IMG/VR virus record: IMGVR_UViG_3300036770_002242
Location: 1-63,505 of that record
Source: a virus
Length of the DNA stretch: 63,505 nucleotides
Reading direction: 5' to 3' (one strand)
Shown one piece after another: positions 21,686 to 63,505 of this stretch. Both the position numbers and the translations under genes were made by a program. The first letter of the stretch is position 1. Every line of letters begins with the position of its first letter. A model generated the notes under the pieces. That model was not told where the DNA came from, searched no databases, and worked only from the letters and a program-made list of their open reading frames with translations.

Positions 21686-21822
21686 TATTTTTTACCTTTC
21701 TTAGGGGCAGGTACCTTAGATTTTCCTTTACCCTCCGGCACACAGTTAGGGACTTTCTTACCAGCTTGGCTTTTAAAGCCCACCTGGACATAACCTTTCC
21801 AGCAGGGATTACTTTTTGCCAT
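21685..21822 (-). CDS. Small 'CWKGY...VPNCVPE' protein
   Basis: A 45-residue Lys-rich protein with 'NPCWKGYVQVGFKSQAGKK' and 'VPNCVPE', a small motif I have seen in proteins of phages and large viruses of aquatic hosts. Two Cys frame the motif. Function unknown. The start overlaps the previous gene by 14 nt and the end overlaps the next start as TAATG. Confidence 0.65.
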   Translation of the reverse strand: MAKSNPCWKGYVQVGFKSQAGKKVPNCVPEGKGKSKVPAPKKGKK

Positions 21823-60552: not shown

Positions 60553-61119
60553 CTATCGTCTTTGTATGAAAGTGCGAACAGTCCCACCTGAATATACATC
60601 GTGCTTCTTAGCAATCTCGATAGACTTCCTAACCACTTTTTCGGCGGACTTAGGGTCAGTACATTTGTTGTAGTTTAAAGCCTCAAGTGCACCTAGAGCG
60701 TAATCTCCTCCAGAGCCGGCTACATAAAAGCCTCTAGCATCTCTATCCCAGGAGTAGTCTTCAAAGACGATGTACATAACACCGTGTACAGCAATGATGA
60801 ATTCTGAGTCGTGAGAGGCGAACTCGCCTTCTTCTTTCATGTCATAGCCTGCATCCATGAATGTAAGACGCATTTGCGGGATGAATTGAACGCTCATCCA
60901 TTCATCTAAGTTTTGATTAACGCGGGGTTTTGCTGGCTTCCAACCATAATGCATTAAGTTAGATCCGCGTCCTGCACCAGCACCAGCAATAAGAATGCCG
61001 TTGTTCTCAACAATTTTTGGGGTAGCGGTATCTAATAGTCGTCCGCTATCAAGTGATGCTCTGGATTCAGATCCGAGAACACACCATCCGTCGCCTTGCA
61101 CACCTACTAACGTCGTCAT
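60553..61119 (-). CDS. HslV/proteasome-beta-like Ntn hydrolase
   Basis: A 188-residue protein. The sequence starts MTTLVGVQGDG, so Met removal exposes Thr1-Thr2, as in HslV. Further parallels are E17 (Asp in HslV) in 'GSESRAS', 'TPKI' with Lys at about position 34, 'IAGAGAGRG' and 'YVAGSGGDYALGALEAL', which corresponds to the HslV 'GSGGPYA' region. This is the beta-subunit fold of self-compartmentalising proteases. Whether it is active or assembled as a ring is unknown. It is transcribed from a near-consensus TATAAT at 61143-61148. Confidence 0.75.
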   Translation of the reverse strand: MTTLVGVQGDGWCVLGSESRASLDSGRLLDTATPKIVENNGILIAGAGAGRGSNLMHYGWKPAKPRVNQNLDEWMSVQFIPQMRLTFMDAGYDMKEEGEFASHDSEFIIAVHGVMYIVFEDYSWDRDARGFYVAGSGGDYALGALEALNYNKCTDPKSAEKVVRKSIEIAKKHDVYSGGTVRTFIQRR

Positions 61120-61280: not shown

Positions 61281-61730
61281 CTACGCTATTTCGATAACCT
61301 TAGGCTTATGTTCCTCAGGGATGCGGCGCTCCAGGTCAATGAAGAGGATGCCGTCGACGAAGGAGGCTTTAGCGACCTCCACATAGTCAGCCAGGACGAA
61401 TTCGCTCTTGAAGTCTCTCATGCCGATCCCGCGATGGACGAACTCGTCATCACGCTTCTCAGCCTTAGATCCCTCAATGGTTAGGACGTTATCCTTTAGC
61501 TGGATAGCGATCTCCTTCTTAGTGAAGCCGGCCACAGCCATCTCCACCGTATAGGTGTCCTCACCGTGCTTAACGATGTTGTATGGAGGATATGAAGACC
61601 CCCGACCCATAGATTCGCTCATACGAGCTAGGGTGTCGATTTGTCTCTCAAAGCCGACCATCCATGGCCAAGCAGTGAATGGTACGCAAGAATTTGCAGA
61701 TTTGAATGAAGTGTTGAATGTAGGTATCAC
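61281..61730 (-). CDS. Small heat-shock protein (Hsp20/alpha-crystallin)
   Basis: A 149-residue chaperone. The alpha-crystallin domain runs from about 45 to 140, with 'DTYTVEMAVAGFTKKEIAIQ', 'LTIEGSKAEKRDDEFVHRGI' and 'FKSEFVLADYVEVAKASFVD', then 'GILFIDLERRIPEE'. Hsp20 genes are known in aquatic phages and may protect proteins during infection. GTG start, with AAGGAG five bases upstream. Lies next to the HslV-like gene, so a protein-quality pair is likely. Confidence 0.9.
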   Translation of the reverse strand: MIPTFNTSFKSANSCVPFTAWPWMVGFERQIDTLARMSESMGRGSSYPPYNIVKHGEDTYTVEMAVAGFTKKEIAIQLKDNVLTIEGSKAEKRDDEFVHRGIGMRDFKSEFVLADYVEVAKASFVDGILFIDLERRIPEEHKPKVIEIA

Positions 61731-62204
61731 TTTAACTCCTTAAAGCAAGTTAGTTTAGGCATCCCCAAACGGCAGATGCGTACCCAGTATAAGGCCACTG
61801 CCCCCCGTTTTATTCCCCTGAAAATTTTTGAATTGTGTCTCAGATCACGAAATTTTACCTTTTGGGACCCCATAACCCCCCAATTTAAATTTTAGGGCCA
61901 CTGCCTACTATTTAAATAGCTGCTAGTGGATCTCTCCTGGCTAGAAAATCGGACATTTCGGACTAAAGGTGCGGGGGGGACAAAACGGACATTTCAGACA
62001 TTGACAGGTCGCTAGTAAAATAAGCGCGTCATTATGGCTCGGCTAGTAAGGTAGAGCCCGACACTAGGGCGGTAGCATGTCTATGCTACCGCATTTCTTG
62101 TTGCTTCCAATGTGATGGGTCGGTAGGGGGTGCGACTCCCCCTGCCGACACGCATTGGCAAATCGCCATGCCCGCAGTAATGCGGTATCACTAAGGAGAT
62201 ACCT
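61731..62204. promoter_or_regulatory. Divergent intergenic regulatory region
   Basis: This region separates Hsp20 (minus) from the plus-strand gene at 62205. It contains the direct repeat CGGACATTTCGGAC (61950-61963) and CGGACATTTCAGAC (61986-61999), a TTGACA at 62001, and a GGCTC/GAGCC stem (62036-62058). A perfect hairpin GCGGTAGCAT-GTCT-ATGCTACCGC (62069-62092) follows. Next are a 12-pair hairpin (62119-62151) within an outer CCAATGTG/CGCATTGG stem, and CCGCA-GTAA-TGCGG. Finally, GGTATC/GATACC just before the ATG puts the AAGGAG ribosome site in its loop. It looks like a promoter plus a regulated leader. I see no tRNA. Confidence 0.5.
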
Positions 62205-62732
62205 ATGTCATTCATTGACCTAGTTATTGAGAAAGCCAGCGAGCGGGGCACTAAGGGCACGGAGCGTGTCCTATTGTCCCTAACTGAACTCGCTGGGCAG
62301 GAGGGTCATAAGTGCCCTAACCCTGCCGACATCGTTGCTCTGCTACCACGCACGAGCAAGGACGAGCCAGAGGTTGAGCCTCTGGTGTTTGCCTACGCCC
62401 TCTACCTCATGGTGGAGTATGCGTTTGAGGTGGGAGAAGCCCGCCGATACGCCAACAACTTCCGTCAGGAGTTGGACAACCTCATGGTTGAGGGTAATGT
62501 ATTGGTCACCAAGACCAACATCACTAAGGCAGACATTGAGCGTAAGACCTCGCTCAAAGATACAGCCATCGAGCGTAAGATCGAGGCGCTAACCAATAGC
62601 GTCAAGTCTTTCCGTAAGATGGTCGCTGATGGTCGCACTCTATCCGATGAGGACGAGTTGGCTATCGCAAACTTGGTGTCTGACCTACAGACACTAGTCA
62701 CCCATACATCACGGGTGGAAGCACTAGTCTAA
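62205..62732 (+). CDS. Hypothetical plus-strand protein
   Basis: A 175-residue mainly helical protein: 'FIDLVIEKASERGTKGTERV', acidic middle, and 'NFRQELDNLMVEGNVLVTKT' with Lys-rich helices. The ribosome site AAGGAG sits four to five bases before ATG. GC content is clearly higher than in the minus-strand genes. No family recognised; it opens the plus-strand transcription unit that also contains the structured non-coding stretch. Confidence 0.7.
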   Translation: MSFIDLVIEKASERGTKGTERVLLSLTELAGQEGHKCPNPADIVALLPRTSKDEPEVEPLVFAYALYLMVEYAFEVGEARRYANNFRQELDNLMVEGNVLVTKTNITKADIERKTSLKDTAIERKIEALTNSVKSFRKMVADGRTLSDEDELAIANLVSDLQTLVTHTSRVEALV

Positions 62733-63327
62733 TAGTTCTAGGCCACTACATCGTTAGCCGTGGGCTGTGTATCAGCACGGCCAGGCTAGCGGTGGGGGTG
62801 GCTCACTATTAGCAGGTAAGAGTGTTGCTAACACTCCTATCGCTCACAGGCTCTCTAGTCTGTGGGCGGTGGAAGGGTTAGCGCCCTAGTCCATTGGATA
62901 GCACAAGAAATAGCCCTGCTGTGTGGGGTGTCAATCCTCCGATTACTAGCCAAGTATCACGCTAGTCGGTGAGGGCTATCAACCTAGTGGATGACAAATG
63001 TTCTGCCTTCCTATAGTAGGTAAGGGGTGGGGAGTCAAATCCCCGCCCCTTATCTATGTCCTAGATGGTTATTGGAGAGCAGACAGGACACGACACCCCC
63101 TGCAGTATTACCGCTTATGGCCCTGCTAACAGGAGGCCATAGGTTAGAGGGATGCTCGTTCCCACAACGATTGGACGCCTTGATGAGCCCGGTATGTCGC
63201 AAGACCTCTACGCCCTAAGATCCCAGTTAGCTCGTTGTGGTAATACAGAGCCAAGTGGATAGGCTGCTGATAGTTCCTCGTTCTGTCTGTTCCCCACTAC
63301 CTATCTAAGGTAGTAGATGGGAAGGTT
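62733..63327 (+). ncRNA. Candidate large structured RNA (about 595 nt)
   Basis: No convincing frame is present between two plus-strand genes. Instead many helices can be drawn. They include GCCGTG/CACGGC (62757/62776), GAGTGTT/AACACTC (62820/62830), CGCTCACAG/CTGTGGGCG (62841/62860) and ATAGCCCT/AGGGCTAT (62910/62972) enclosing ACTAGC/GCTAGT. A 13-pair TAAGGGGTGGGGA/TCCCCGCCCCTTA follows (63021-63052). Beyond it are TGTCCT/AGGACA (63057/63085), TATGGCC/GGCCATA (63116/63135), CCACAACGA/TCGTTGTGG (63162/63232) and ACTACCT/AGGTAGT (63296/63308). The TAGAGG/CCTCTA pair (63145/63205) would cross the 9-pair stem as a pseudoknot. Size and location recall large ornate phage RNAs (GOLLD, ROOL), but identity is unverified. 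Confidence 0.55.
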
Positions 63328-63505
63328 ATGAAACCCGACAAGATACAGCGTAAGACTCTATTGGTTAGTATCTATTATTACCAAGATGAGCCTATCACCT
63401 CTCTTGAGGACCCTAATGATGAGCAATGTAACTTTATGGACTTGCCCGATTATTTATTCCTCAACGATGCGATATACGACACCATGAAGAAGTACAACCC
63501 CGCTT
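63328..63505 (+). CDS. Plus-strand gene, truncated by the window end
   Basis: The frame starts at ATG 63328 (GGGAAGG just upstream, spacing short) and remains open to the end, 59 codons. It begins 'MKPDKIQRKTLLVSIYYYQD' and continues with an acidic, helical-looking segment. No family recognised from this fragment. It follows the hairpin-rich non-coding stretch. Confidence 0.6.
   Translation, partial: MKPDKIQRKTLLVSIYYYQDEPITSLEDPNDEQCNFMDLPDYLFLNDAIYDTMKKYNPA

Follow-up and report, generated by a model that had tools for sequence, protein, structure and literature searches.

A structured RNA locus lies between two plus-strand genes of the phage analysed here, and its existence and its conservation within one phage clade are near certain. 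It is an RNA-level locus, it is uncatalogued, and by covariance model it is neither GOLLD nor ROOL. A sequence-only reading had proposed a large structured RNA at this site, and the analysis supported a conserved plus-strand structured RNA between the two genes, of a class absent from Rfam.

The window, i.e., the whole stretch of DNA that was analysed, is virus record G000 (63,505 bases), with contractile-tail phage genes on the minus strand; TerL, major capsid, tail sheath and DnaB helicase genes were found there. The TerL of the window is 52-53% identical to those of Streptomyces phage BRock and its relatives, and WhiB genes, which are described as an actinophage marker in part of one report (PMC6802176), were present in six of eight related records (G001 among them) and absent from the window and from contig G002. 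Based on the TerL likeness and the WhiB genes of the related records, the host is very probably an actinobacterium. The rightward arm starts with gene A, and the stretch under study (62733-63327) lies between gene A and a small gene at 63328, for which a likely homologue was seen by eye in G003 (Table 1). Genes for an HslV/proteasome-like protein (60553-61119) and an Hsp20 (61281-61730), both with homologues in relatives, lie beside the divergent region.

Judged by sequence comparison, gene A is a true coding sequence under protein selection, with dN/dS values of 0.16-0.24 in 11 of 16 homologue pairs, 0.03-0.34 in 14 of 16 and about 0.5 in the remaining pairs. Neither Pfam nor PHROG gave a confident match for gene A, and its predicted model (pLDDT 60.6) was too poor for interpretation. 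A scan for sigma-70-type patterns in 61750-63505 gave three promoter-like sites on both strands against 2.0 expected, and the site ahead of gene A is therefore weak, since this frequency is near chance. One terminator-like site was found in the same interval against 1.2 expected, also ahead of gene A. No plus-strand promoter or terminator of its own was predicted within 62733-63327. The leader of gene A also contains a long hairpin with a T-arm-like tip (62107-62158) that resembles the HP-A hairpin described below in look.

Table 1. Coordinates of the features in the rightward arm of the window
Feature	Position	Strand	Remarks
Promoter-like site	61993-62021	+	TTCAGA-17-TAAAAT, 9/12; sole plus-strand site predicted in 61750-63505
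Terminator-like hairpin	62069-62092	+	gene A leader; 10 pairs and a T-rich tail; weak
Gene A	62205-62732	+	175 aa; first gene of the rightward arm; highly variable between phages
E4	62741-62815	+	GGCCACT..GCCAGG-N23-TTAGCAG; one copy in the window; GCCAGG replaces ACCAGG of the pattern
Nested set	62910-62979	+	closed by ATAGCCCT (62910-62917) and AGGGCTAT (62972-62979); read in the sequence
SD-closing segment	63003-63012	+	CTGCCTTCCT; predicted to close the Shine-Dalgarno (SD) sequence of gene 63328
HP-A	63016-63057	+	18-bp GC-rich hairpin; loop GUCAAA (GUAA in G002); counterparts in 25 loci
E5 basal helix, 5' arm	63072-63087	+	14 of 16 positions pair in the window
E5 apical domain	63088-63281	+	crossing stems; other sequence in G002
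E5 basal helix, 3' arm	63282-63297	+	pairs with 63072-63087
E5 terminal hairpin	63296-63314	+	ACUACC/GGUAGU; loop begins UAUCU
SD-like sequence	63319-63326	+	GGGAAGGT; serves gene 63328
Downstream small gene	63328-63505	+	92 aa in G002; the window end truncates its copy

Folding signal and paired modules

The plus strand of 62733-63327 folded with a minimum free energy of -255, compared with -209.1 ± 7.2 for shuffled sequences (z -6.36), and none of 100 shuffles was as good; on the minus strand z was -3.76 and one of 100 shuffles was as good. The longest plus-strand frame inside the stretch was 63 aa from a GTG. The stretch of about 595 nt had been described as lacking a credible frame, which held: no long frame was present, and the lengths of the indels against G002 (2, 2, 1 and 2 nt), not one of them divisible by three, contradict a conserved protein frame. 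Twenty stretches of 257-595 nt, from 18 relatives, the window and G002 and with ends chosen by the analyst, all had a plus-strand z of -5.73 or lower (mean -7.9). The minus-strand mean was -4.3, and the plus strand was better in 19 of the 20. As controls, 50 random 220-nt windows from five phage contigs gave a mean z of -0.70 (minimum -4.04, one below -4), and eight 430-nt stretches farther down the arm gave a mean of -2.4 (lowest -4.39).

The structured block is wider than 62733-63327. In 220-nt steps along the window, the signal started at 62101, at the leader and start of gene A, continued through gene A and was gone at 63201, and in the analysed stretch of G003 it extended from 1421 to about 2500. 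In G005 the gene A signal was weaker (-2.2 and -2.7), and an extra strong 220-nt window at 21781 (z -5.89) lay outside the block. The mRNA of gene A was itself structured, with a z of -6.9 for the whole gene in the window and a mean of -5.6 (range -3.4 to -7.8) for the coding RNA of 11 copies of gene A, from the window and 10 relatives.

The helices proposed from the sequence alone were present in the window. The 9-pair stem of CCACAACGA (63162-63170) with TCGTTGTGG (63232-63240) and the crossing candidate TAGAGG (63145-63150) with CCTCTA (63205-63210) were found, the latter inside the apical part of E5, as was the nested set with its complementary ends; its eight closing pairs are preserved by eye in G002 as GUAGCCCU/GGGGCUAU. 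In relatives with HP-B, the usual order was gene A, HP-A, HP-B, E3, E4 and E5, where E3 is a stem region, defined by eye, after GUGUCYU. The match to HP-A and HP-B started 8-50 nt past the gene A stop codon in 34 of 36 contigs and about 290 nt past it in the window and G002.

HP-A had 21 distinct stems in 25 loci, and all 199 of 199 basal cells were paired in these hairpins, which were selected for pairing; after arm swaps the mean was 75% and the maximum 82%. Its loops were of UUCG/UACG, GNRA, UUAU and other types. HP-B, an 18-bp hairpin CUCUAUCUAUGUCCAUAG..CUAUGGGCGUAGAUGGGG directly after HP-A, was paired in 96.8% of 432 cells over 24 distinct rows. Double changes affected seven pairs and 12 cells, and none of 500 shuffles reached the observed value on any of the five measures. 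When the partner strand was slid by 1-3 columns, pairing fell to 31-62%. G-U pairs were frequent in HP-B on the plus strand.

The E5 module consists of a long hairpin, GUGGAAG-helix..CUCUCAC, and after it a small terminal hairpin whose stem differs between phages and whose loop usually begins with UAU or UAC. The 5' arms of the long helix were picked by eye through the GTGGAAG anchor (28 rows, 24 distinct, the mis-anchored L245 being kept). In this set 345 of 384 cells were paired compared with a shuffled mean of 306 and maximum of 319, and 40 cells were changed on both sides compared with a shuffle maximum of 22, so that none of 2000 shuffles was as good; position 5 of the helix was unpaired in 22 of 24. 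The compensatory changes expected of a conserved RNA structure were thus found in homologues, in HP-B as well as in E5. Since the shuffles of both modules retain relatedness, more weight was given to the swaps and to how many distinct stems there are. Loci L399 and L400 are 96% identical before E5, yet their E5 arms are GGCGCAUCUG/CAGGUGCGCC and GGUACAUAGG/CCUAUGUGCC, respectively, and the window and G002 differ by the same kind of arm swap with 14 of 16 positions paired in each. Such pairs of near-identical phages, set apart by the exchange of a single RNA domain, provide a natural experiment. That the locus consists of chance inverted repeats, or of a compositional artefact in a non-coding gap, is a practically negligible prospect, which is contradicted by the compensatory changes in HP-B and E5, the strong folds in all 20 stretches, the random-window controls and the 37 module-free loci described below.

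The window and G002 were aligned over 15,519 columns with seven mismatches and four gaps. The non-coding block has six of the mismatches and the four gaps within its first 339 nt; beyond these the E5 region is exchanged in G002, and the next 211 nt differ at two sites. From this pattern we read the difference as a probable recombination boundary running rightwards from the block. Hypermutation of the non-coding RNA was considered and dropped, because the sequence to the right differs too (2 of 211) and because the non-coding RNA before E5 was no more diverged than gene A in five of seven other pair comparisons.

E4 is an element of 75-76 nt that starts 7-9 nt past the gene A stop in the window and in L398-L401. 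Its pattern, which fixes the motifs and not their distances, gave 30 distinct copies from 42 sources (one was a duplicate, and 11 sources, including the window and G002, had no match). The spacing from CCAGG to TTATCAGGTA was 23 in 21 of 21 distinct copies from all fetched loci when 5-60 was allowed, and GGCYACT lay 33-35 nt upstream of CCAGG in all 26 distinct matches to the longer pattern (25 with a spacing of 23, one with 22). The sequence between the motifs varies widely, and the constancy is partly inherited, because the copies are related. One copy each was found in the window, G002, G003 and G004, while G006 has a single spacing-22 match in another place and G005 has none of the fixed-spacing form. 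Of the 30 copies, which are of the GCCACTGGC type, ten make near-perfect hairpins, another four also have strong folds and the rest weaker ones, and RNAalifold gave no common fold for E4. The fixed geometry of E4 exceeds the needs of a processing hairpin.

These properties of E4, namely its fixed spacing, its single copy where found and its lack of a shared nested fold, would also suit a DNA-level site with inverted repeats for recombination, replication, packaging or a promoter, with E4 as the protein-binding core. The recombination boundary between the window and G002 falls here as well, and in L282 and L308 a small gene cassette after E4 is bounded on each side by a TTATCAGGTA repeat, with about 120 nt between the two. 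We regard a DNA site as highly improbable, because the stronger fold on the plus strand in 19 of 20 stretches and the frequent G-U pairs of HP-B both mark RNA; in addition, no recombinase of the Phage_integrase family (PF00589) was found in six records, which may be fragments, and an integron-like site thus found no support there.

Relatives and spread of the locus

A blast search with the window stretch against 50,697 phage records found nothing, the named phages had no direct DNA similarity to the copy of L282, and no similarity to gene A was found among them. With gene A as query, two near-identical contigs were obtained, G002 and G001; the latter ends 30 nt into the region and is identical to the window over the shared part. 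TerL identified at least 600 related stretches in the IMG/VR viral collection. In G003-G006 (93-104 kb) the rightward arm begins alike, with a gene of 166-189 aa followed by a non-coding gap whose core is shared, and these first genes have no clear mutual similarity. Loci were gathered by an HslV profile (80 loci kept from a larger set), by the core pattern and by the E5 pattern. In total, the non-coding stretch after the first rightward gene was collected from 42 contigs, the window and G002 included, several of which are near-identical.

Of the 80 HslV loci, 22 carry the HP-A/HP-B core. Among the other 58, the needed flank is shorter than 2.5 kb in 21; it reaches at least 2.5 kb in 37, and in these 37 none of HP-A/HP-B, E4 or E5 was found. 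By this comparison the locus is clade-limited. As an uncatalogued, well-supported structured RNA it extends what is known of a large phage group, only part of whose TerL relatives are likely carriers. No such region was seen by eye beside the HslV gene of the more distant relative G007, and a pattern search of genome contigs for HP-B gave no matches.

The search model R1 for HP-A/HP-B was built with HP-A unpaired, as MAFFT misaligned HP-A. It detected the two hairpins at E < 0.01 on the gene A strand in 22 of 85 sources, a count that leaves out weaker opposite-strand echoes of the same hairpins; in 41 kb of BRock R1 had no match. The usual form of HP-B was not found in the window, where R1 scored only 15.7 bits (E 1.7) because of an insertion. 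The homology of the window therefore rests on E4, E5, the CTGCCTTCC/HP-A segment common to L399-L401, and the gene order. L399-L401 are the closest to the window in layout, and their gene A is 31-32% identical to that of the window. E5 was not found within 330 nt after E4 in several phages, and in L364 (G006) an E4-like stretch was seen by eye inside HP-B. On these sequence comparisons, modules are lost, reordered and swapped between phages.

Known RNA families

The 4227 covariance models of Rfam 15 gave no family at the gathering score in the window, including GOLLD, ROOL, OLE and HEARO, and only tRNAs, elsewhere in the loci, in 14 relatives. GOLLD (RF01998) and ROOL (RF03087) were also absent from the relaxed matches, taken to E 10 for 61700-63505 and to E 5 for L392-L395, L397 and L003, so that the suggested membership in either family failed at the gathering score as well as among relaxed hits. 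Passages of one report (PMC12286853) describe many GOLLD members as longer than 800 nt with a universally conserved 3' region, an expression that rises at lysis and assembly into a 14-mer nanocage. The locus is similar to GOLLD in being a large structured phage RNA, and some relatives, though not the window, have tRNAs nearby. In contrast to GOLLD, it is shorter (257-595 nt as folded), matches no covariance model, lies between two genes with no promoter of its own predicted, and has E5 units that recur before small genes. It also has no universally conserved 3' region, as E5, its 3' module, was not found after E4 in several phages. Compared with ROOL, it is likewise phage-borne and complex with pseudoknot candidates, but lacks a covariance-model match.

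Other candidates were rejected. A tRNA or tmRNA was considered for the T-arm-like hairpins at 62119-62149 and 63016-63057, but neither ARAGORN nor Rfam gave a match, and the T-arm-like pattern GGGGAGTCAAATCCCC had many matches in viral contigs, which were taken as mostly chance. A Ro60/Y RNA was considered because of an RNA-binding protein and many tRNAs in BRock, and no TROVE-domain protein was found in eight records, which may be fragments. The protein at 6681-8252 of L407 is gp191 of BRock itself, the nearest named phage, an RNA-binding protein inside a large tRNA array that also contains two annotated RNA ligase genes. In the titles and abstract openings of the papers found on GOLLD and ROOL, structured RNA of freshwater phages, intercistronic phage RNA, actinophage non-coding RNA and new viral RNA families, no description of the locus was seen.

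Mode of action

The locus most likely acts in cis, and from its sequence and arrangement we infer processing, an effect on stability and early timing. Our leading reading is a modular cis-acting intercistronic region of a rightward mRNA that starts before gene A, and not a separate gene, to which we give an even chance. E5 units, selected by pairing, were found in 32 distinct forms in 42 sources, and 22 of the 32 had an SD-like run, a start codon and an ORF of at least 25 aa no more than 45 nt downstream, under a rule that accepts as little as GGA as an SD. Several units lie farther downstream before other small genes. Based on this position E5 resembles a leader unit, and the block as a whole an intercistronic region. 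The reading was further drawn from the absence of E5-like units from the 37 HslV loci that lack the core, the lack of a predicted own plus-strand promoter or terminator and the predicted SD lock described next. The 37 module-free loci, the 14/16 pairing of E5 and the SD spacing have no bearing on cis versus trans action. Against the reading stand the limited occurrence of the SD lock, the short SD spacing in the window, the fixed geometry of E4, the structure of the gene A mRNA, the strong G005 window outside the block and the fact that the locus is not universal.

In the window GGGAAGG ends 2 nt and GGGA 5 nt before the ATG at 63328, so that the spacing between SD and ATG is short. Pairing of 63005-63012 with 63319-63326 was predicted with probabilities per SD base of 0.86-0.97 in the window and 0.88-0.99 in G002, and an SD lock in the window lineage is probable from these folding models. 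Translation of gene 63328 would then need opening by E5 cleavage, by a protein or by co-transcriptional timing. The SD was mostly closed in five of 23 cases, the window and G002 being two of the five, and L399-L401 retain CTGCCTTCC with no SD pairing predicted; a general SD switch was therefore dropped.

In the proposed mechanism, HP-A, together with HP-B in most relatives, would be a very stable hairpin block guarding or setting a 3' end, and E5 would be a long hairpin leader ahead of the SD of the small genes. Cleavage by a double-strand RNase of the RNase III type in E5, protection of the new 5' end, or both, may then set mRNA life and translation, with 63005-63012 locking the SD of the next gene in the window lineage. 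Swapping of modules would let phages exchange small gene cassettes at the junction. Early mRNA of T7 has intercistronic RNase III hairpins, and phage mRNAs carry processing hairpins. The locus is similar to these in having long hairpins between co-oriented genes, here presumably early and co-transcribed, followed by the SD of the next gene. It differs from the T7 hairpins in being far larger, multi-module and swappable, with a fixed-geometry E4, and cleavage is hypothetical here. To our knowledge, no swappable multi-module intercistronic block of such size has been known before. The loci offer concrete sequences for testing modular intercistronic RNA control of phage gene cassettes.

A single free-standing giant RNA became doubtful given the lack of a predicted own promoter or terminator, the variable content and order of modules and the E5 units before other genes. 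The locus suggests that a large RNA of a phage may also be other than free-standing. A related possibility is a trans-acting ornate RNA of a new, GOLLD/ROOL-like class, excised from the gene A transcript, pseudoknotted, abundant and perhaps oligomeric. The very strong folds in 20 of 20 stretches, the several domains common to phages and the crossing stems of the window are consistent with it. Opposite-strand tRNA genes were also found within a few kb of the locus in seven of 14 relatives (L270, L282, L290, L391, L245, L262 and L317; none in the window), and GOLLD and ROOL are phage-encoded, often beside tRNA islands, in passages of the report cited above, according to which phages with large structured RNAs are already known (PMC12286853). 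However, the lack of a predicted own promoter and terminator, the recurrence of E5 before other genes, the variable content and order of modules, the absence of E5 within 330 nt after E4 in several phages and the lack of an Rfam match make the trans-acting RNA unlikely, if a serious contender. Another form of it appears rather unlikely: a new class of giant modular phage RNA, a unit of about 1.1 kb made of leader, gene A message and intercistronic block, with a constant scaffold (HP-A, E4 and the base of E5) and an apical domain swapped to retarget a host factor; once excised, this RNA would act in trans.

HP-A and HP-B may instead act on RNA polymerase as a nascent-RNA element for attenuation or antitermination. 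The put element consists of two adjacent stem-loops. In part of one report (PMC9378689), put of HK022 is described as an RNA of early genes that works in cis to suppress pausing and termination. The two adjacent stable stem-loops past the first gene of the arm and the terminator-like hairpin in the leader are consistent with such an element. The locus resembles put as a presumed cis RNA in a phage early operon with two adjacent stem-loops. Unlike put, it lies after and not before the first gene, and an effect on RNA polymerase is hypothetical here. Such an element is improbable, because the loops and stems of HP-A vary freely, unlike a specific polymerase contact, and because the window has no T-run terminator predicted after HP-A and no HP-B of the usual form.
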